From: Alphaproteobacteria bacterium
GTDB taxonomy: Bacteria; Pseudomonadota; Alphaproteobacteria; Reyranellales; Reyranellaceae
Direction: 5' to 3'
Assembly (NCBI GenBank): GCA_016869975.1
Contig: VGCZ01000033.1
Location: 1 to 56,558, forward strand
Length of the DNA: 56,558 nt
Shown here one piece after another: positions 6,245 through 53,678 of the stretch. Within the stretch, counting starts at the first letter, position 1; each line of letters opens with the position of its first letter. The translations under genes were made by a program, and so were the position numbers. A model generated the notes under the pieces. That model did no database searches. It saw only the letters and a list, made by a program, of their open reading frames with translations, and had not been told where the DNA came from.

Positions 6245-7861
6245 TCATGAGGGCTCGAGCAGCGCGTTGCTCTCGAGCGCCTTGAGCGTGGCTTCGACGA
6301 ATTCGGCGGCGGCGTTGTGGCGCGCCTCGTCGCCCTCGACCGGTCGGCCGTCGCGCAACAATTGCAGGCCGCCCTCGGCGACGATGCGCAGCACGCCATC
6401 GGTCAGCGCCGCGCGATCGCGCGTGCCGTCGAGCAGGGGCAGCAGGGCGCGCATCGGCACGTCGATGGCGACCGCCTCGTGGCGCAGGCTGGCGGTGTGG
6501 TCTGTGCGCTCGACAGCGTCGAGGCGGGCGAAGGCCGAGGCGCTGGGGCGCTCGGCCGACGCCGAGCCGATGCGCAGCGGCACGGTCGAGAAATCGATCA
6601 TCCCGACATTGGCCATGCGGAACAGCGCGTCGAGCACCGCCGCTTCCTGCGCGGCCGGTTGGTCGGCCCAGCGCGTGGCGATGGCGATCAGCTCGCGCGG
6701 CTCGGCGGTCGCCGGGTAACGCGTCGCCAGCGCTTCGAGCGCGGTGGCGACCGAAGGGCTCGCCGTTGTGAGCGTGCGGTCGGCGGCGTCCTTGAACAGG
6801 AAGGCGCCCTTGTCGGTGCGCTCCGGCTCGAGGCGGAACTTGCCCGACAGATGCAGGTCCATGAGCCGGATCGGCTCGAGCATGCGCTGGGCCCGGCGCG
6901 CCTGCTCGGTCTTGACCAGGATGGTCTGCCGGAAGGTGCGGCCGGTGAGAATGTCGATGTACTGCTCCAGCGGCAGTAGCCGGTTGCCGGCCAGCTCGCG
7001 CAGGATCTTGGCGGTGTCCTCGCCATAGGTCTCGGCCAGCATGGTGTGGATCTCGGTCTCGGCGAGATAGCTGGCGCCCTGTTTCTCGGCGGCGAGTACG
7101 AACTCAGTCACGGTGCAGGGCGTGTTCTCGGCCTCGAGGAACTCGTGCAGCACGTAGTCGTCGCGCTGGTTGGCGAGGAAGGCGGCCTCGGTGCGCAGCG
7201 CGTTGCCGTAGGGCGTGGCCTGCGCCACCTTGTCCTTGAGGAAATTCATCAGCGCCTTGGCCTGGCCGACCTTCTGCGCCGGATCGGGAATATGCGCGGC
7301 GTGCGCCAGCATGGCGTCGCGCACGATGCGCTTGAGGTGCCAGCCGGGCATCACGTTGTAGCTGACGATAGCCACGCCGTTGTCGGAGAGGCGCGTCGCG
7401 CAGATGCGCAGGATCGCCTCTCGCACGGCGTCGGGCACCCAGGAGTAGACGCCATGGCAGATGATGTAGTCGAAGGTGCCGTCGGCCTCCCCGATCTCGG
7501 TGATGCTGCCGTGCCTGAGCTCGATATTCTTCAGCCCCAGCCGGCCGAGCCGGCGGCGGCCATGCTCGATCTGCACGCCCGAGAGGTCGACGCCGAGGAA
7601 GCGCGCCTCGGGAAAGCGCAGCGCCTGCGGCAGCAGATTGCCGCCCGCGGCGCAGCCCAGCTCCAGCACCCGCGCGGTCGCCACCGGCGGCGCCCGCAGC
7701 CCGAACATGTGGGCGATCGCCGACAGCCGGCCCGGCTGGGTCATCGGGAAGGCGTGCGAGATGTAGGGGGTTGCGTCGTAGTCGGCGGCGGTGCGCTCCA
7801 ACGCGCTCGCCAACTGTCCGCCTCGATCTCCGTCGGCCGCCACCACTGTCGCGCTCCTCAC
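6245..7861 (-). CDS. SAM-dependent methyltransferase with methyltransferase-regulatory domain (PKMT-like)
   Basis: The 538-residue protein begins with TPYISHAFP and a class I Rossmann methyltransferase domain whose SAM motif VLELGCAAGGN lies at about residues 65-75. An acidic motif II follows (FLGVDLSG). The middle part has the methyltransferase regulatory domain (near residues 210-300), and the last 150 residues resemble the C-terminal domain of bacterial protein lysine methyltransferases. The overall architecture is that of the rickettsial PKMT family, which methylates surface proteins. Whether this enzyme modifies a protein here is inference. It stands alone between a gene relic and the SelW-like gene. 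Confidence 0.8.
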   Translation of the reverse strand: MRSATVVAADGDRGGQLASALERTAADYDATPYISHAFPMTQPGRLSAIAHMFGLRAPPVATARVLELGCAAGGNLLPQALRFPEARFLGVDLSGVQIEHGRRRLGRLGLKNIELRHGSITEIGEADGTFDYIICHGVYSWVPDAVREAILRICATRLSDNGVAIVSYNVMPGWHLKRIVRDAMLAHAAHIPDPAQKVGQAKALMNFLKDKVAQATPYGNALRTEAAFLANQRDDYVLHEFLEAENTPCTVTEFVLAAEKQGASYLAETEIHTMLAETYGEDTAKILRELAGNRLLPLEQYIDILTGRTFRQTILVKTEQARRAQRMLEPIRLMDLHLSGKFRLEPERTDKGAFLFKDAADRTLTTASPSVATALEALATRYPATAEPRELIAIATRWADQPAAQEAAVLDALFRMANVGMIDFSTVPLRIGSASAERPSASAFARLDAVERTDHTASLRHEAVAIDVPMRALLPLLDGTRDRAALTDGVLRIVAEGGLQLLRDGRPVEGDEARHNAAAEFVEATLKALESNALLEPS

Positions 7862-7892: not shown

Positions 7893-8111
7893 TCACGGTC
7901 CGGCGAGGGCGTCGATCTCCTCGTCGGTCGGGAAGCGGCCGGTTTTCGCGCGCGTATAGGCCAGCGTCCCGTCGACCGTGATGTCGAACTGGCCGGACTT
8001 GCCGGGCGTCAGGGTGACGTCGGTGTGCCCGGACCGGGCAAGCAATTCCCTCACACGGAGGGCCTGCGGCTTGTAGCCTCAACCGCTGCAGTATTCGATC
8101 CGAACCTTCAT
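7893..8111 (-). CDS. SelW-like (Rdx family) protein, probable selenoprotein with in-frame TGA
   Basis: Reading from 8111 gives MKVRIEYCSG, then TGA (codon 11, 8081-8079), then GYKPQALRVRELL, GQFDITVDG and TGRFPTDEEI, ending at 7893 (72 codons with TGA read through). This is the SelW/SelT/Rdx thioredoxin-like family. The TGA falls exactly on the second redox residue of the CxxC/CxxU motif, so CSG-Sec is the expected active site. The frame is open on both sides and a stem-loop follows the TGA. The ATG overlaps the regulator stop (ATGA), so translation is coupled. The role would be thiol/selenol redox chemistry. The alternative is a nonsense-mutated Cys homologue. No selenocysteine-insertion gene is in this window. 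Confidence 0.75.
8039..8073 (-). promoter_or_regulatory. Candidate bacterial SECIS stem-loop
   Basis: In the mRNA downstream of the TGA, CAAGC (from +6) pairs with GCUUG (to +40) and an inner stem CCCUC/GAGGG closes a five-base loop CGUGU at +22 to +26. Distance and a GU-containing apical loop fit what is known of bacterial selenocysteine insertion elements. The pairing was found by eye, without folding energies. Confidence 0.55.
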
Positions 8112-8452
8112 GCGACCTTCCTCTTGCCGGCAGGAGGGGGCGGGCAGTAGATGTCAGCGAGCAGCGATATGACCCGTGCGGCCGCAGGATCGCCCAACCG
8201 ATAGAAGATCGTCTGCGCCTCGCGTCGCGTCCGCACCAGTTCGTCGGCACGCAGCTTGGCAAGGTGCTGTGAAAGCGCCGAACTGGACAATCCGACGCGC
8301 TTCGCAAGATCGCCGACGGTCGCTTCGCCAGTGGACAGTTCGCAGAGCACCATCAGCCGTCGTTCGTTGGACAGCGCGCGCATCAATCGAGCCGCCTGGT
8401 TTGCGGCGGCCGCGAAAGAAGCCTGATCGGGGAGGCTGACTGGACGCGGCAT
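8108..8452 (-). CDS. ArsR-family transcriptional regulator, BigR/SqrR-type persulfide sensor
   Basis: The 114-residue winged-helix repressor has the ArsR core (MRALSNERRLMVLCEL, then SSSALSQHLAKLR as recognition helix region, then EAQTIFYRL). It carries Cys37 in the LMVLCEL helix and Cys103 in DIYC near the C-terminus. Their spacing matches the cysteine pair that forms a disulfide or tetrasulfide bridge in BigR and SqrR, so it probably senses sulfane sulfur rather than metals (inference from family). A tandem operator TTAG-N6-CTAA lies directly upstream. It is co-transcribed with the SelW-like gene, and the sox operon is divergent. Confidence 0.85.
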   Translation of the reverse strand: MPRPVSLPDQASFAAAANQAARLMRALSNERRLMVLCELSTGEATVGDLAKRVGLSSSALSQHLAKLRADELVRTRREAQTIFYRLGDPAAARVISLLADIYCPPPPAGKRKVA

Positions 8453-8555: not shown

Positions 8556-9821
8556 GTGCAAGAGAGATCGGCCATCGTGCGATCGGTTGCATCGCTACTG
8601 GTAGCAATGACGACGATAGCAGTGTTTCAGGAGGCACGCGCGCAGCAGGCCGCGCCGCTGCATCTCGACGGGCCCGCCTCGCCGGCGCCCTGGACGCGCT
8701 ATCGCGACTGGAACAGGGCGACGTGGGATAACTACAACACGCTGGCCCAGCGTGAGCGCACGCCCAAGGCGCTGGGCAAGCCGCTCGATGTGGCGACGCC
8801 GATCGTCGGCGACGCGAAGAAGGGCCAGGATCTCGCGTTCTCGCGTGCGCGTGGCGGCGGCTGTCTCGCCTGCCATGTCATGGGCCCGCGATCGCTCGAG
8901 GCGCCGGGTAACGCCGGCCCCGATCTGTCGGAGATCGGCGACGCGGGACGGCCCGACGACTATCTGTTCAACTACATCTGGGATCCACGTCATCTCAATC
9001 CCGACTCGGCGATGCCGCCATGGGGCGCACACGGCTTCTACAGCCGCGAGGAGATCATCGACATCGTGGCGTTTCTCAAGACGCTGAAGACGCCCGCCAC
9101 CTTCCGCAACACGCTCGACGATCCTGCCAAGCGTCCGCTGCCGGTGGAGAACCGCGACGCGCTCGATCCGTTCGTCAATCCGGCCGCCGATCGCATCGAC
9201 ACCGGCGCGGCGCTGTTCGCCAAGGTGGGGCCATCGGGCAAGAGCTGCGCGTCCTGCCATGCCGACGCGAAGGCGTTCGCCGGCTGGGCGGTGCGCATGC
9301 CGAAGTGGAACGCGCAGGCGGGCAAGATGATGGGTGTCGAGGAGTTCGTCTTCCGGCACGCCAAGGCGACCACGGGCGCCGACCACCCGATGCAGGGGCG
9401 CGAGAACACCGACCTCAGCGTCTTCCTGCATTCGCTGTCGAACGGCCGGCCGATCGAGGTGGATCTTACGAGCCCGGACGCCAAGAGAATCTATGAATTC
9501 GGCAAGGTTCTCTACGACGCCAAGATCGGCCAGTTCAATTTCTCTTGCGCCGATTGCCATGCCGTCAGCAAAGGCGGTAACAAGTGGCTGCGCGGGCAAT
9601 ATGTCGGCGACGGCAAGGGGCAGATGGACCACTTCCCGCTCTGGCGAACCAGCCGGGGCAGCGGCGAAGTCTGGGACATCCGCAAGCGCCTGCAGTGGTG
9701 CAATGTGCAGGTACGAGCCAACGAGTTGCCGCCCGAAGCGGCGGAATACGACGCGCTGGAGCTCTACCTGAAGTCGCTCAGCCAGGGCATGCCGTTGACG
9801 GCGCCGAACATTCGGCACTGA
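8556..9821 (+). CDS. soxXA: Fused SoxX-SoxA cytochrome c (thiosulfate oxidation)
   Basis: The 421-residue periplasmic protein joins two normally separate Sox subunits. A signal peptide ends near ARA-QQ (residue 29). The SoxX domain has heme motif CLACH (103-107), NAGPDLSEIG and an NPDSAMPP Met-ligand loop. The SoxA domain has heme motifs CASCH (231-235) and CADCH (331-335), and RLQWCNVQVRA holds Cys382, the expected persulfide-forming ligand. SoxXA oxidatively joins thiosulfate to the SoxY carrier. The GTG start at 8556 has GAGGGA upstream and begins the signal peptide; the longer frame from 8451 crosses the operator. It is the first gene of the sox operon. Confidence 0.88.
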   Translation: MQERSAIVRSVASLLVAMTTIAVFQEARAQQAAPLHLDGPASPAPWTRYRDWNRATWDNYNTLAQRERTPKALGKPLDVATPIVGDAKKGQDLAFSRARGGGCLACHVMGPRSLEAPGNAGPDLSEIGDAGRPDDYLFNYIWDPRHLNPDSAMPPWGAHGFYSREEIIDIVAFLKTLKTPATFRNTLDDPAKRPLPVENRDALDPFVNPAADRIDTGAALFAKVGPSGKSCASCHADAKAFAGWAVRMPKWNAQAGKMMGVEEFVFRHAKATTGADHPMQGRENTDLSVFLHSLSNGRPIEVDLTSPDAKRIYEFGKVLYDAKIGQFNFSCADCHAVSKGGNKWLRGQYVGDGKGQMDHFPLWRTSRGSGEVWDIRKRLQWCNVQVRANELPPEAAEYDALELYLKSLSQGMPLTAPNIRH

Positions 9822-9850
9822 CCACGCATGCAGCTCAACGGAGGACTCGA

Positions 9851-10321
9851 ATGGAACCAACCTCTCCTGTGATCGCGCGACGCCGCGTGCTGGTTGGCGT
9901 CGCCGGCGCCGGCGCCGTCGGGCTGCTGACCCAGTTCGCCGCGCGTGGCGCCGGCGCGACGCCGGAAGCGGCCAAGGCGCTGCTTCAGACGCTCGCCAAG
10001 GGCGAGCCCAAGGAAGGCCGGATCGCCATCCGCGCACCGGAGATCGCCGAGAACGGCAACGCCGTTCCGGTGACGGTGGCGGTCGAAAGCCCGATGACCG
10101 ACAAGGATCACGTCACGGCGATCCACGTCGTGGCCGACGGCAATCCGAACCCCGGCGTCGCGTCGTTCACGCTGACGCCCCTGTCGGGCAAGGCCGAGGT
10201 GCAGATTCGCGTGCGCATGGCCTCGACGCAGAAGATCGTCGCCGTGGCGCAAATGAGCGACGGATCGCTGTGGACGGCGACGCGCGAGGTCAAGGTCACC
10301 ATCGGCGGCTGCGGCGGCTGA
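9851..10321 (+). CDS. soxY: SoxY, sulfur carrier subunit
   Basis: The 156-residue protein has a Tat-type leader (IARRRVLVGVAGAGAVGLL) and ends in the defining SoxY swinging arm IGGCGG. Its cysteine carries the sulfur intermediates during thiosulfate oxidation in the periplasm. The signal peptide shows folded export, probably together with SoxZ. It starts 29 bp after soxXA, with GGAGGA upstream, and is followed by soxZ. Confidence 0.95.
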   Translation: MEPTSPVIARRRVLVGVAGAGAVGLLTQFAARGAGATPEAAKALLQTLAKGEPKEGRIAIRAPEIAENGNAVPVTVAVESPMTDKDHVTAIHVVADGNPNPGVASFTLTPLSGKAEVQIRVRMASTQKIVAVAQMSDGSLWTATREVKVTIGGCGG

Positions 10322-10344
10322 ACCGGCGAACAAGGAGCAGGACC

Positions 10345-10674
10345 ATGGCGGACGATATCAAGCCGCGTATCCGAGTGCCGGCCAACCCGAAGAAGGGCGA
10401 GGTCATCGAGGTCAAGACGCTGATCACCCATCCGATGGAAACGGGTCAGCGCAAGGACGCCGCGGGCGCCACCATCCCGCGCAAGATCGTCAACACGATG
10501 ACCGTGACCTTCAACGGCAAGCCGGTGTTCCAGGCCAAGCTGGAGCCGGCGATCTCGGCCAATCCCTATCTGTCGTTCCACATGCGCGCCGAGGAGAGCG
10601 GCACGCTGAGCTTCACGTGGAAGGACGACGACGGCGCCGAGTACAAGGCTGAACAGAAGATCGCGGTGACGTAG
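10345..10674 (+). CDS. soxZ: SoxZ, sulfur carrier complex subunit
   Basis: The 109-residue protein matches SoxZ from end to end (RIRVPANPKKGEVIEVKTLI, HPMETGQRKD, MTVTFNGKPVF, LSFTWKDDDG). It has no signal peptide of its own and is expected to reach the periplasm bound to Tat-exported SoxY, forming the SoxYZ carrier. The start follows an AAGGAGCAGG ribosome binding site. The gene lies 23 bp after soxY. Confidence 0.95.
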   Translation: MADDIKPRIRVPANPKKGEVIEVKTLITHPMETGQRKDAAGATIPRKIVNTMTVTFNGKPVFQAKLEPAISANPYLSFHMRAEESGTLSFTWKDDDGAEYKAEQKIAVT

Positions 10675-10706
10675 GCGCGGGACCACACGGCGCAACGGAG
10701 AGGCGC

Positions 10707-12413
10707 ATGCTGACCCGGCGGGACCTCGTGCAGCTCGGCGCGGCGACGGCGGCATTGGGCGTCGCCGGACCGATGACGCGCGCGGTGGCGCAGCAGCGGC
10801 TGACGCAGGAGGACATCCTGCGCTTCGAGCCGGTCGGGCAGGTTACGCTGCTGCATTTCACCGACATGCACGCGCAGCTCGTGCCGGTGCATTTCCGTGA
10901 GCCGTCGGTGAATATCGGCGTCGGCGAGGTGGCCGGCCTGCCGCCGCATCTGGTCGGACCCCATCTGCTGCAAGCCTTCGGCGTCGCGGCCGGCTCGGCC
11001 GAAGCGTACGCGCTGACATCGGGCGACTTCGCCGCGCTGGCGAAAGGCTACGGCAAGGTCGGCGGCGTCGATCGCATGGCGACCCTGGTCAAGGCGATCC
11101 GCGCCGAGCGGCCCGGCCGCGTGCTGCTGCTGGATGGCGGCGACACCTGGCAGGGCTCCTACACCTCCGCCGTCACCAAAGGCGCCGACATGGTGCGCGT
11201 GGCGAAGGCGCTGGGCGTCGAGGGCATGACCGGGCACTGGGAATTCACCTACGGCGCCGAGCGCGTGAAGGAACTGGCGGGCCAACTCGGGTTTCCGTTT
11301 CTCGCCGGCAACGTCAAGGATACGGGCTTCGGCGATCCGGTGTTCGACGGCGAGACCATCGTCGAGCGCGGTGGCTTGCGCATCGGCCTGATCGGCCAGG
11401 CCTTTCCCTACACGCCGGTGGCCAACCCGCGTTGGCTGATCCCCGAGTGGTCGTTCGGGATCGAGGAGGACAAGCTTCGCGCACGGGTCGAAGCCCTGCG
11501 CGGCAAGGGCGTCGATCTGATCGTCCTGCTGAGCCACAACGGTTTCGACGTGGATCGCAAGCTGGCGTCGCGCGTGAGCGGGATCGACGTGATCCTGACC
11601 GGTCACACGCACGACGCGCTGCCAGCGGCGGTGCGGGTGGCGGATACGCTGCTGGTGGCGTCCGGCAGCCACGGCAAGTTCCTCTCCCGGCTCGATCTCG
11701 ATGTTCAAGATCGCAAGCTCAAGGCGTTCCGGTTCCGCCTTATGCCGATCTTCGCCGACGCGATCAGGCCCGATGCCGAGATGGCGACGCTGGTGAAGGA
11801 GATCCGCGCGCCGCACGAGGCGACCCTGTCGACGGTTCTGGCGCGCACCGAGTCGCTGCTCTATCGCCGCGGCAATTTCAACGGCACGTTCGATGACGTG
11901 ATCTGCCAGGCGCTGCTCAGCGAGCGCGACGCCGAGATCGCGCTGTCGCCCGGTTTCCGCTGGGGCGCCTCGCTGCTGCCGGGACAGGACATCACCACCG
12001 AGGATGTCCACAACCAGACCTCGATCACCTACCCGGCGGCTTATCGCACCGAGATGAAGGGATCATTCCTGCGCGAGATCCTCGAGGATGTCGCAGACAA
12101 CCTGTTCAACTCCGATCCCTACTACCAGCAGGGCGGCGACATGGTCCGCGTGGGGGGGCTGAGCTACGCCATCGACGTCGGCGCGCCGATGGGGCGGCGC
12201 ATCTCGGAGATGACCGTGCTGCGCACCGGCAAGCCGGTCGATCCGGCGGCGAGCTATGTCGTGAGCGGCTGGGCCTCCGTGAACGAGGGCACGCAGGGCC
12301 CGGCGGTGTCAGAGGTGGTGTCGGCGTATCTGCGTTCTGCGCGCACCGTCCGGGTCGAGCCGAACCGCCATGTCAGGGTGACAGGCGCGGATCCACGCGG
12401 CGTGATGGGCTGA
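10707..12413 (+). CDS. soxB: SoxB, S-sulfosulfanyl-L-cysteine sulfohydrolase
   Basis: The 568-residue dimanganese hydrolase removes the terminal sulfonate as sulfate from the SoxY-bound intermediate. It has a Tat leader (RRDLVQLGAATAALG) and the 5'-nucleotidase-like metallophosphoesterase motifs: TDMHAQ (52-57), DGGDTWQG, SHNGFDVD and GHTHD. The C-terminal domain contains SPGFRWG. Length is normal. The start follows GGAGAGG. Its position between soxZ and soxC matches the common sox order except that soxA is displaced into the soxX fusion. Confidence 0.95.
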   Translation: MLTRRDLVQLGAATAALGVAGPMTRAVAQQRLTQEDILRFEPVGQVTLLHFTDMHAQLVPVHFREPSVNIGVGEVAGLPPHLVGPHLLQAFGVAAGSAEAYALTSGDFAALAKGYGKVGGVDRMATLVKAIRAERPGRVLLLDGGDTWQGSYTSAVTKGADMVRVAKALGVEGMTGHWEFTYGAERVKELAGQLGFPFLAGNVKDTGFGDPVFDGETIVERGGLRIGLIGQAFPYTPVANPRWLIPEWSFGIEEDKLRARVEALRGKGVDLIVLLSHNGFDVDRKLASRVSGIDVILTGHTHDALPAAVRVADTLLVASGSHGKFLSRLDLDVQDRKLKAFRFRLMPIFADAIRPDAEMATLVKEIRAPHEATLSTVLARTESLLYRRGNFNGTFDDVICQALLSERDAEIALSPGFRWGASLLPGQDITTEDVHNQTSITYPAAYRTEMKGSFLREILEDVADNLFNSDPYYQQGGDMVRVGGLSYAIDVGAPMGRRISEMTVLRTGKPVDPAASYVVSGWASVNEGTQGPAVSEVVSAYLRSARTVRVEPNRHVRVTGADPRGVMG

Positions 12414-12446
12414 GGCACGACCAGGCAAGAGGAAAGGCGACGGTCG

Positions 12447-13724
12447 ATGAACGAGCGGACGAACAGTGGCGGCAGGCGCCGCTTTCTCGCACGCGCCGGT
12501 CTTGTCGGCGGCGCGGCGCTTGCCGGCGGGCTGCCGCCGGTGCGCGCGCTGGCCAAGGGCGAGGAGAACTTGCCGCCCAACGTGCCGGAATGGATGCGCA
12601 CCCTGGGGCCGGGCGTCACCGCGTCGCCCTATGGCACGCCGTCGCCGTTCGAGAAGGCGGTCGTGCGCCGTAGCGTGGAGTGGCTGACGGCGACAGAGCA
12701 GTCCTCGATCAACTTCACGCCGCTGCACGCGCTGGAGGGAATCATCACGCCCAGCGGGCTGTGCTTCGAACGGCATCACGGCGGCGTACCGGAGATCGAT
12801 CCGGAGCAGCACCGGCTGATGATCCATGGCATGGTCGAACGACCGCTGCTGTTCACCATGGATGACATCCTGCGCTTCCCGTCAGTGAGTCGCATCTACT
12901 TCGTCGAATGCCCGGCCAATGGCGGCATGGAATGGAAGGGCGCGCAGATGGATGGCGTCCAGTTCACGCATGGAATGGTCCATTGCTGTGAATGGACGGG
13001 CGTGAAGCTCTCGACGCTGTTGGCCGAGGCCGGCGTAAGCCCGTCGGCGAAATGGATCCTGGCGGAAGGCGCCGACGCCGCGGCCATGACCCGCTCGATT
13101 CCCCTGGAGAAGGCGCTCGACGACTGCCTTGTCTGCTACGCGCAGAACGGTGAGCGCATCCGGCCGGAGAACGGCTACCCACTGCGGCTCATCGTGCCGG
13201 GCTGGGAAGGCAACGTGAACATCAAGTGGCTGCGCCGCATCAAGCTGGGCGACCGTCCGTGGCACCATCGCGAGGAGACCTCGAAGTACACCGACCTGAT
13301 GCCCGACGGAAAGGCGCGGCAGTTCACCTTCCTCATGGAGGCGAACTCGGTGATCACGTCGCCCTGTCCGGAGAAGCCAATGAAGCACGGCAAGGGTTTC
13401 CACGAGATCAGGGGCATCGCCTGGTCCGGAAGCGGCAAGATCCGGCGCGTCGATGTGTCGACCGACGGCGGGGACAATTGGCGCACGGCGGAGCTGCAGG
13501 AGCCGGTGCTGTCGAAAGCCCTGACCCGGTTCCGCCTGCCGTGGACCTGGGATGGCGCGCCGGCGCTGCTGCAGGCGCGCGCCATCGACGAGAGCGGCTA
13601 CGTGCAGCCCACGATCGAGCAGTTGCGCAAGTCGCGTGGCCTGAACTCGATCTACCACAAGAACTCCATCCATACGTGGCGTGTGAACGCCGATGGCACG
13701 GTCAACAATGTCCAGATCATCTAG
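12447..13724 (+). CDS. soxC: SoxC, sulfane dehydrogenase molybdenum subunit
   Basis: The 425-residue protein is a sulfite-oxidase-family molybdoenzyme that, with SoxD, oxidises the sulfane sulfur still bound to SoxY. A Tat leader (GGRRRFLARAGLVGGAALAGG) leads to the Mo-cofactor domain. YFVECPANG holds the likely Mo-ligating Cys155, and HCCEWTGV is the SoxC-typical stretch that follows. The C-terminal half is the immunoglobulin-like dimerisation domain. Presence of SoxCD predicts complete oxidation of thiosulfate to sulfate without stored sulfur. The 3' end overlaps the start of soxD. Confidence 0.95.
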   Translation: MNERTNSGGRRRFLARAGLVGGAALAGGLPPVRALAKGEENLPPNVPEWMRTLGPGVTASPYGTPSPFEKAVVRRSVEWLTATEQSSINFTPLHALEGIITPSGLCFERHHGGVPEIDPEQHRLMIHGMVERPLLFTMDDILRFPSVSRIYFVECPANGGMEWKGAQMDGVQFTHGMVHCCEWTGVKLSTLLAEAGVSPSAKWILAEGADAAAMTRSIPLEKALDDCLVCYAQNGERIRPENGYPLRLIVPGWEGNVNIKWLRRIKLGDRPWHHREETSKYTDLMPDGKARQFTFLMEANSVITSPCPEKPMKHGKGFHEIRGIAWSGSGKIRRVDVSTDGGDNWRTAELQEPVLSKALTRFRLPWTWDGAPALLQARAIDESGYVQPTIEQLRKSRGLNSIYHKNSIHTWRVNADGTVNNVQII

Positions 13725-14385
13725 GCGCCGTCCGCTGGTCGCGATCGCCGCCGCCCTCCTGTCGGCGGCTCTCGTCGCGGGCGACGCGTTCGCGCAGGAT
13801 CGAGCGCCGCAGCGCTTCGGTTTCGGCCGCGCCGCCACGGCAGCGGAGATCAAGGGCTGGGATATCGACGTGCGCGCCGACGATGGCCTGGGCTTGCCGC
13901 CGGGCAAGGGCACGGTCGCCGCGGGCGAGAAGCTCTACCAGGAGCAGTGCGCCTCCTGTCACGGCGAGTTCGGAGAAGGCAATGGCCGCTGGCCGGAGCT
14001 GATCGGCGGCGAGAAAACCCTGAGGTCCGAGGATCCGCGCAAGACCGTTGCCAGCTTCTGGCCCTACGCGCCTGGCATCTTCGACTATGTCAGGCGGACC
14101 ATGCCGTTCGCCGCGCCGCAGTCGCTGAGCGACGACGATACCTATTCCATCGTCGCCTATCTGCTGAACATCAACGACCTGCTGCCGGCCGATGCCACGC
14201 TCGACGCCGCGGCGTTGAAGGCCATCCGCATGCCCAATCGAGACGGTTTCGTGCAGGGGGATCCACGCCCTGATGTGCCCGTGGGCGAGCCGTGCATGAG
14301 CAAGTGCCGGAAAGAGCCGCCGAGGATCACCAGCGACCTGGCCCAGCGCCTGGGCGTGACGCCGGACAATCGAAGACAAAAGTGA
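13693..14385 (+). CDS. soxD: SoxD-type monoheme cytochrome c
   Basis: The 230-residue exported cytochrome has a signal peptide ending near FAQ-DR and one heme motif CASCH (86-90). The conserved HGEFGEGNGRWPEL, PYAPGIFDYVRRTMPF and VPVGEPCMSKC regions are typical of SoxD. The classical Paracoccus SoxD is longer and carries two hemes; this one has only one CxxCH and is short. It would accept electrons from SoxC. The start overlaps soxC by 32 bp; the Met at 13708 is an alternative start with little change to the signal peptide. Confidence 0.85.
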   Translation: MARSTMSRSSRRRPLVAIAAALLSAALVAGDAFAQDRAPQRFGFGRAATAAEIKGWDIDVRADDGLGLPPGKGTVAAGEKLYQEQCASCHGEFGEGNGRWPELIGGEKTLRSEDPRKTVASFWPYAPGIFDYVRRTMPFAAPQSLSDDDTYSIVAYLLNINDLLPADATLDAAALKAIRMPNRDGFVQGDPRPDVPVGEPCMSKCRKEPPRITSDLAQRLGVTPDNRRQK

Positions 14386-14452: not shown

Positions 14453-14749
14453 ATGATTCTCTACAGGGCGGCACTGGCCGCCGCGCTTGTGCTGGTGGGT
14501 GCCGCGCCGACCATGGCCCAGACCGGCCAGGCCATGGCGCAGACCTGCTACGTTTGTCATGGGCCGGGCGTTAAAGGCGCTGGCCAGATCGTCGGCCTGG
14601 TCGGGCTGCCCAAGGACCACCTCGTCCGGCAGATGGCCGACTTCAAGGCCGACAAGCGCCCGGGCACGATCATGAATCGCATCGCCAAGGGATACACCGA
14701 CGAGCAGCTCGCGCTGATCGCCGAGTACCTCGCGGCGCTGAAGAAGTAG
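14453..14749 (+). CDS. Small cytochrome c (SoxE / FccA-like)
   Basis: The 98-residue protein has a cleavable signal peptide (AAPTMAQ) and a single heme motif CYVCH (32-36), followed by GPGVKGAGQIVGL. Small cytochromes of this kind form the heme subunit of flavocytochrome c sulfide dehydrogenase. The next gene encodes the matching flavoprotein 11 bp downstream, so the two probably form a SoxEF-type complex in the periplasm. Confidence 0.82.
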   Translation: MILYRAALAAALVLVGAAPTMAQTGQAMAQTCYVCHGPGVKGAGQIVGLVGLPKDHLVRQMADFKADKRPGTIMNRIAKGYTDEQLALIAEYLAALKK

Positions 14750-14760
14750 GGGAGGCCGCC

Positions 14761-16041
14761 ATGCGCACGACACGTCGTCGTTTCCTGAAGTCGGCCGCCG
14801 CGTCCGGCGCTGCCGTCTCGCTGCTGGGCGCGCCCGCCATCGCGCAGGGTGTCGCCGGCAAGGTGGTGGTGGTCGGTGGCGGCTTCGGCGGCGCGACCGC
14901 CGCGAAGTACCTCAAGCTCGCCAACGCCAAGCTCGACGTCACGCTGATCGAGCGCGACGATCGTTACATCACCTGTCCGTTCTCGAACTACGTGCTGGGC
15001 GGCTTCCGCAAGATCGAGGAGAACGTCCAGACCTTCGATGCGCTCACCAAGCTCGGGGTCAAGGTGACCAAGGGCGAGGCCGCCGGCATCGACGCGCCCG
15101 GTCGCCTGCTGCGGCTGTCGGGCGGCAGCCGCATCACCTATGACAAGCTGGTCGTCTCGCCCGGCGTCGAGCTGAATTACAAGGGCGTACCGGGCTACGA
15201 CGAGTCGCTGGCCGAGAAGCTGCCCCATGCCTGGAAGGCGGGGCCGCAGACGACCCTGCTGCGCAGCCAGCTCGAGGCGATGCCCGATGGCGGCACCTTC
15301 ATCATGGTGGCTCCGCCCAACCCCTTCCGCTGCCCGCCCGGCCCATACGAGCGCGTCAGCACGATCGCCTGGTACTTCAAGAACCATAAACCGAAATCGA
15401 AGATCCTGATCCTCGACGCCAAGGACGCGTTCTCCAAGCAGAGCCTGTTCCAGGGCGCGTGGGAGTCGGAGTATCCCGGCATGATCACCTGGATCGCCGG
15501 CAAGGACGGCGGCAAGGTCGAGAGCGTCGACGCCGCGTCCATGACGGTGAAGTCGGGCTTCGGCGCCGAAAAGGGCACGGTGATCAACGTCATCCCGCCG
15601 CAGACTGCCGGGCGCATCGCCATCGATGGCGGGTTGACCGACGATCGCGGCTGGTGCGCCGTCGATCCGCAGACCTTCGCCTCGCGCAAGGCGGAGCATG
15701 TGTACGTGATCGGTGACGCCTCGATCGCCGGCGCCATGCCGAAATCCGGCACGGCGGCCAACGTGCAGGGTAAGGTCGCGGCCGCCGCCATCGTCGCTGC
15801 GCTCGATGGCAAGGCGGCGACGGCGCCGGCCTTGCTGAACATCTGCTACAGCCTGGTGACGCCGGACTACGGCATCTCGACCACCGACGTCTACCAGGTG
15901 ACGGCCGATCGCGGCATCATCGCCACGCCCAACGCCGGCGGTGTCAGCCCGCGGGCGCCCACCGCGATGGGCGAGCGCAAGCTGGAGGCCGAATACACCC
16001 GCGCCTGGTATCAGGCGATCACGGCGGATACCTGGGGCTGA
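14761..16041 (+). CDS. Flavocytochrome c sulfide dehydrogenase flavoprotein (SoxF / FccB-like)
   Basis: The 426-residue protein has a Tat leader (RRRFLKSAAASGAAVSLLG) and an FAD-binding motif VVVVGGGFGGATAAKYL. CPFSNYVLGG near residue 78 holds one redox Cys. A second Cys in NICYSLVTPDYG near the C-terminus is typical of flavocytochrome c flavin subunits. HVYVIGDA binds the FAD ribityl phosphate. The enzyme oxidises sulfide to sulfane sulfur and passes electrons to its cytochrome partner; in sox clusters SoxF can also reactivate the Sox system. It follows the small cytochrome gene directly. Confidence 0.9.
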   Translation: MRTTRRRFLKSAAASGAAVSLLGAPAIAQGVAGKVVVVGGGFGGATAAKYLKLANAKLDVTLIERDDRYITCPFSNYVLGGFRKIEENVQTFDALTKLGVKVTKGEAAGIDAPGRLLRLSGGSRITYDKLVVSPGVELNYKGVPGYDESLAEKLPHAWKAGPQTTLLRSQLEAMPDGGTFIMVAPPNPFRCPPGPYERVSTIAWYFKNHKPKSKILILDAKDAFSKQSLFQGAWESEYPGMITWIAGKDGGKVESVDAASMTVKSGFGAEKGTVINVIPPQTAGRIAIDGGLTDDRGWCAVDPQTFASRKAEHVYVIGDASIAGAMPKSGTAANVQGKVAAAAIVAALDGKAATAPALLNICYSLVTPDYGISTTDVYQVTADRGIIATPNAGGVSPRAPTAMGERKLEAEYTRAWYQAITADTWG

Positions 16042-53554: not shown

Positions 53555-53604
53555 TGGCGGACCCGGCGAGATTCGAACTCACGACCTCTGCCTTCGGAGG
53601 GCAG
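53555..53604 (-). tRNA. 3' half of a tRNA-Arg(CCG) gene (att site, split at the anticodon arm)
   Basis: On the minus strand the sequence runs from the anticodon stem CTGCC, loop CTCCGAA (anticodon CCG), stem GGCAG, variable loop, T arm GTGAG-TTCGAAT-CTCGC and acceptor strand CGGGTCC to G-CCA. The expected 5' half (acceptor GGACCCG, D arm) is absent; the sequence right of 53604 is unrelated. This is the classic leftover of integration into a tRNA gene. The other tRNA half should lie at the far end of the element, outside the window. Confidence 0.8.
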
Positions 53605-53678
53605 TGGATAACCCGTTGCCGCACTTTTCCGCAGTGTGCTGGAATGGACAGAAGCCCGAAAATGCAGCAAAAACAGGC

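Follow-up and report, generated by a model that had tools for sequence, protein, structure and literature searches.

A predicted SelW-type selenoprotein gene beside sulfur oxidation genes in an alphaproteobacterium of the Reyranellaceae

SelW-like proteins and the gene in the window

In the Sargasso Sea and GOS sequence sets, no selenoprotein family was larger than that of the SelW-like proteins (PMC1088965, PMC2398784). The selW-type gene described below resembles theirs in specifying a small protein with a CxxU motif and in having, after its UGA, a hairpin with a guanosine in the apical loop; it is distinguished by belonging to a relative within the Reyranellaceae and by adjoining sox genes, and is otherwise of the same kind. 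The Sec form of Campylobacter jejuni is similar in length, and its selW had also been missed by annotation until Ribo-seq and proteomics showed translation past the Sec site to the full length (PMC11955535). In contrast to that protein, the one considered here scores 74.9 bits with NCBIfam NF041051 (SelTWH_Campy), under the equivalog cut-off of 88. Adjacent genes for Prx and SelW selenoproteins have been seen in metagenomes (sections of PMC2398784 and PMC13188914), so that an interesting neighborhood for a SelW gene is not new in itself.

The window, as the whole stretch of 56,558 nucleotides that was analyzed will be called, comes from a source genome of 4.84 Mb in 96 contigs. The features of the gene are:

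7893..8111, minus strand: predicted selW-like selenoprotein gene, 72 amino acids plus stop (Pfam Rdx, TIGR02174, AlphaFold2 model)
8079..8081, minus strand: in-frame TGA at codon 11, read as selenocysteine within C8-S-G-U11 (translation; relatives)
8116..8124, minus strand: purine-rich Shine-Dalgarno-like stretch AGAGGAAGG before the selW ATG (read from the sequence)

A sequence-only reading had placed an in-frame TGA at codon 11 of 7893-8111, and the coordinates are right; the strand, which it left unstated, is the minus strand. From an ATG at 8111-8109 the frame reaches a normal TGA stop at 7895-7893 and, with the TGA at codon 11 (its sole internal stop) taken as U, gives MKVRIEYCSGUGYKPQALRVRELLARSGHTDVTLTPGKSGQFDITVDGTLAYTRAKTGRFPTDEEIDALAGP. 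The TGA does fall at the expected place in the redox motif, C8-S-G-U11, a position that is Cys in five homologues without a stop from the same class, and the Rdx pattern was correctly seen to continue beyond it to the normal end: the product matches Pfam Rdx (PF10262) with E=9.1e-17 and 61.5 bits, above the cut-off of 22.6, and NCBIfam TIGR02174 (CXXU_selWTH) with E=6.4e-13 and 48.8 bits, above the cut-off of 34.2. Because the read-through product matches the Rdx family, the frame is more than a chance one. TIGR02174 matches the whole genome at one place only, selW, where it spans one TGA. It is nearly certain that 7893-8111 is a genuine selW-type gene of a predicted selenoprotein with UGA-11 decoded as Sec. 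The same proposal in the sequence-only reading is now supported by the machinery, the retention of the TGA, selection on what follows it and the hairpin.

In an AlphaFold2 model made with 35 aligned sequences (pLDDT 89.1, pTM 0.73, order E-H-E-E-E-H-H), C8 and U11, the latter modeled as Cys, are in the loop between strand E3-7 and helix H14-26, and the predicted structure has a thioredoxin-like Rdx fold with the CxxU in that loop. Foldseek returned 23 PDB matches for the model at E<=0.001, which are SelW-related or similar proteins of Bordetella, Agrobacterium, Streptomyces, Pseudomonas and Vibrio, together with mouse SelW and MIEN1; for the bacterial SelW-related chains TMq is 0.82-0.88, and the CxxC Rdx protein Atu0228 (PDB 2fa8) shares the fold with TMq 0.86. 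Mouse selenoprotein W (PDB 2npb), to which the similarity is weak (E=1.5e-5), has the CGYKP context at the Sec position and differs in relying on a eukaryotic SECIS in the 3′ UTR (PMC1088965, in part).

Sulfur oxidation genes in the neighborhood of selW

The genes around selW in the window are:

8108..8452, minus strand: ArsR-family repressor like HlyU, SqrR, YgaV and BigR, with two cysteines (LC, YC)
8595..14385, plus strand: divergent sox cluster with SoxXA-like diheme cytochrome, SoxY, SoxZ, SoxB, SoxC-like and SoxD-like products
14453..16041, plus strand: genes downstream of soxD for a presumed c-type cytochrome and a presumed FccB-like flavoprotein (open reading frames; names given by eye)
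6245..7861, minus strand: methyltransferase downstream of selW, and beside selW in all four g1 and g2 genomes that were examined (g1 and g2 being genera of the family)

The ArsR gene is upstream of selW, and its stop codon and the selW start codon overlap in ATGA. The best PDB matches of its product are HlyU, 6o8k-6o8o (which we take to be SqrR), YgaV, NolR and BigR. Its cysteines align with those of HlyU, so that it has two conserved cysteines of the kind through which the sulfane sulfur sensors SoxR and SqrR are described as detecting their signal (PMC10451225). With the NCBIfam BigR model, NF040642, it scores 84.2 bits, under the cut-off of 155. The sox assignments are based on SoxA-TsdA, SoxZ, molybdopterin oxidoreductase and cytochrome c domains, with SoxB at 830.5 bits and SoxY recognized by eye; the start of the SoxXA-like gene, in an open reading frame that opens at 8451, is uncertain. 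The FccB-like flavoprotein is 65% identical to the flavoprotein beside selW at one related locus (L014). A cultured relative from the clade, Vineibacter terrae (locus L018), likewise has selW next to fcc/sox genes. Elsewhere in the window there is a marginal Rfam tRNA match at 53558-53630 on the minus strand (29.1 bits, gathering threshold 29), close to an open reading frame from 53636 whose product, judged by eye, is presumably a phage-type integrase.

Among the genera of the family, g1 (G000, G003, G004), g2 (G001) and g5 (G071-G074) have a sox or fcc gene within 0.2-2.2 kb of selW in all eight of their SelW-bearing genomes, and they do so in two arrangements, upstream and divergent in g1 and g2, downstream and convergent in g5. 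Even G003 and G071, which are without a full SoxB, keep an FccB-like gene beside selW, with or without SoxYZ. Full SoxB occurs together with SelW in 18 genomes, in six of which, all from these three genera, the two are on one contig and 3.0-7.5 kb apart. These proximities, with the ArsR overlap in the window, the alignment of the ArsR cysteines with HlyU and the PDB matches that include SqrR, YgaV and BigR, point to a reading in which SelW serves sulfur oxidation, being made along with a repressor that senses sulfane sulfur and reducing persulfide, polysulfide or disulfide intermediates while Sox/Fcc runs. It would add to the selenoprotein explanation rather than replace it.

That reading is nevertheless unlikely on present evidence. 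No sox or fcc gene was found near selW, up to about 9.8 kb per side, in the seven g3 and g4 genomes examined of the 46 that have SelW, and in all 12 g3 genomes with full SoxB and SelW the two are on different contigs, a count in which contig breaks could hide some linkage. Of the 79 loci listed from relatives, six show sox or fcc genes in the flanking sequence inspected, which extends to at most 3 kb. Family-wide, SelW is present in 18 of the 23 genomes with full SoxB versus 36 of the 52 without, a hand count that gives no clear association. Much of the proximity could, besides, be due to one ancestral adjacency, and the score of the ArsR protein with the BigR model, under its cut-off, also counts against the reading. 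A search for a gene neighbor common to all relatives found none, with neighbors varying between clades, and among the papers listed in a literature search none linked the Sox system with SelW or with any other selenoprotein.

ArsR and selW were also considered as a conserved pair and this was rejected. The overlap was seen only in the window; in the nearest relative (L013/L113), whose SelW is 96% identical, there is no ArsR match between selW and soxXA, so that either this relative has lost the repressor gene or the window has acquired it, and no ArsR match is nearby in G003 (L114). Since the sox/fcc link is not seen in the other two genera, a role in sulfur is unproven. The narrower proposal, that in some sulfur-oxidizing Reyranellaceae SelW is part of the sox/fcc set under a repressor sensing sulfane sulfur, its selenol reducing persulfides or disulfides that arise from thiosulfate or sulfide oxidation, is a shade more doubtful still.

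Constancy of the TGA and the hairpin that follows it

At least 79 distinct related loci were obtained by a scan of genome contigs with peptide patterns which reach close relatives only; the patterns left out codon 11, for which the query had Cys. TGA is at codon 11 in all 80 sequences, the window and the 79 relatives among the matches listed. In the window's family, TIGR02174 matches 54 of 75 genomes, 53 of them over the cut-off, and every one of the 54 matches spans exactly one TGA. A plain Cys codon in close relatives, which the sequence-only reading had named as evidence that would tell against it, was accordingly not seen among the listed sequences or the family matches, and the loss of selection past the TGA that it had named alongside was not seen either. 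Past the TGA, the window differs from L013, its nearest relative, by eight synonymous and two nonsynonymous changes, a dN/dS of 0.08; with ten other relatives the ratio is 0.22-0.56. A set of 43 relatives (L054 and L056 excluded for length differences) supplied 903 pairs, and the 899 of these with dS 0.1-1.5 have a median dN/dS of 0.28 and a maximum of 0.75. Purifying selection acts on the sequence past the selW TGA. That the locus is a pseudogene, or its TGA a sequencing error or a recent nonsense mutation in a CxxC gene, is suggested by the TGA itself and by nothing else, and both this selection and the recurrence of TGA, at the same codon in all 80 sequences and in all 54 family matches, make it extremely improbable.

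Shortly 3′ of the TGA there is one further feature:

8048..8062, minus strand: CCCUC-CGUGU-GAGGG, a predicted SECIS hairpin of bacterial type whose apical loop contains a G (pairing, covariation, RNAalifold)

The 5-bp hairpin begins 16 nt past the UGA. In the same columns, all five pairs are formed in 81 of 91 Sec forms (the window, the 79 listed loci and 11 loci from a class sample, with at least one repeat, L105/L014), four pairs in nine and three in one, while the five CxxC forms have 2, 2, 2, 3 and 2 of the five. The middle pair is C-A in seven of the 91, including L014, L016, L018 and L066. When codons were redrawn synonymously, full stems averaged 1.0 (maximum 6 in 1000) for the alphaproteobacterial group, where 49 of 55 sequences have them, and 3.7 (maximum 10) for the other sequences, where 22 of 25 do. 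For 30 sequences chosen from the 80, 95.3% of the cells in the stem are paired (82.3 in shuffles, 45-57 in slid versions), 20 cells are changed on both sides (4.8 in shuffles), and the covariation score is 0.466 against 0.192, with none of 500 shuffles as high. Two of the five covariation measures are not striking: the number of stem pairs changed on both sides is three, a value that 290 of 500 shuffles reach, and the number of further pair types is eight, which 29 of 500 reach. RNAalifold recovers the identical stem unprompted.

Folding energy is less informative. For single sequences the hairpin energy is unexceptional (p=0.09 for the window; p<0.05 in 14 of 55), and whole-stretch folding reaches p<0.05 in one of 55; because energy alone is not decisive, position-specific pairing was compared with synonymous shuffles and with the CxxC controls. 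Loop position 22 is G in all 91 Sec forms and in all five CxxC forms too, so the G does not discriminate between them and it is the stem that separates the two. The Rfam model SECIS_1 (RF00031) gave no match in the genome, an uninformative result as it was equally silent in all 14 controls. A stem-loop directly 3′ of the UGA with an apical G is what defines a bSECIS, and the selW hairpin, in its placement and its small G-containing loop, fits what PMC1088965 describes for bacterial SECIS elements.

Selenocysteine machinery and the decoding of UGA-11

The machinery whose presence the sequence-only reading had asked about is complete in the source genome, selD being there as a fusion. selA is at C16:88765-89874 (527.5 bits) and selB, with GTPase, beta-barrel and winged-helix domains, adjoins it. 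About 1.6 kb past selB on the opposite strand is tRNA-Sec with anticodon tca, which scores 71.9 bits with the Rfam model, one that matches in all 14 controls, and which ARAGORN also calls tRNA-Sec; of the ten Rfam tRNA-Sec matches in the genome, three of them over the cut-off, it is the only one accepted. On the other side of selA an NADH-dehydrogenase-like/SelD fusion (L011:5410-7635, minus strand; Pyr_redox_2, AIRS and AIRS_C domains) has the motif CAGC. Ndh-SelD fusions are already known and carry CxxC (PMC2398784, in part). In a Verrucomicrobia relative (L074), genes that by eye are selD- and selA-like are downstream of selW in the same direction. SelW is not the sole selenoprotein of the source genome: a formate dehydrogenase alpha subunit (L123:1942, on contig C13) has the motif ARVUHGP and, directly after its TGA, a hairpin with the loop GUU, which shows that the Sec system has another use there. 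A code altered so that the organism reads TGA as some other residue throughout is still less probable than a pseudogene, as selW, arsR and many other predicted genes of the window terminate at TGA, the SelA, SelB and tRNA-Sec set is canonical, and nothing in its favor was found in the window genes or the machinery.

Within the family, a SelA match of at least 243 bits is present in 49 of the 54 SelW-bearing genomes (G030 and G055 have it in fragments) and also in 20 of the 21 without SelW, both by hand count. SelA was not found in five with SelW, G004, G026, G031, G041 and G050; three of the five have SelB, and neither was found in G031 (60% complete) or G041 (96% complete, in about 770 contigs). 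The class sample, 190 genomes that include the window's and two other members of its family, has the SelW/Rdx family in 17, with 12 TGA forms and five CxxC forms that have no stop. Full SelA (>480 bits) is in 11 of the 12 genomes with a TGA form versus none of the five with a CxxC form (Fisher p=0.00097), and by hand count in 13 of the other 173. All five CxxC-form genomes lack SelB as well, and neither SelA nor SelB was found in the one TGA-form exception, G085 (77% complete). The alphaproteobacterial CxxC Rdx proteins, of which Atu0228 is an example, differ from the window's protein in their motif, and the five sampled here do so also in having no full stem and in coming from genomes without SelA and SelB. 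For the Sec-decoding alphaproteobacteria known in 2006, a survey of that year gave FdhA as their sole selenoprotein (PMC1794560); in the present sample, 12 of 190 Alphaproteobacteria genomes have a TGA-form SelW. The survey also states that Cys homologues of SelW-like proteins are very few or absent in organisms that use Sec.

With UGA-11 decoded as Sec, the anatomy of the locus and established biology suggest how the protein would be made. The ribosome would start at 8111, an initiation that is probably coupled to termination on the overlapping ArsR cistron, and the hairpin just 3′ of UGA-11 would let SelB deliver Sec-tRNA-Sec so that Sec is inserted and termination avoided. The predicted product is a 72-amino-acid thioredoxin-like Rdx protein whose C8-x-x-U11 site lies in the loop that joins the first strand to the first helix, and, going by family and fold, it should cycle between the selenol/thiol and selenenylsulfide states as a small intracellular redox protein.

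The selW of the window is a true and well-founded member of a well-known family, and a well-supported addition to one whose function in bacteria is unclear. The SECIS-like hairpin holds its position from Alphaproteobacteria to Verrucomicrobia and Planctomycetes. The link with sox and fcc genes, confined as it is to part of the family, may be a hint of the job of SelW, and the placing of selW beside them in three genera offers a testable hypothesis on what SelW does in bacteria.
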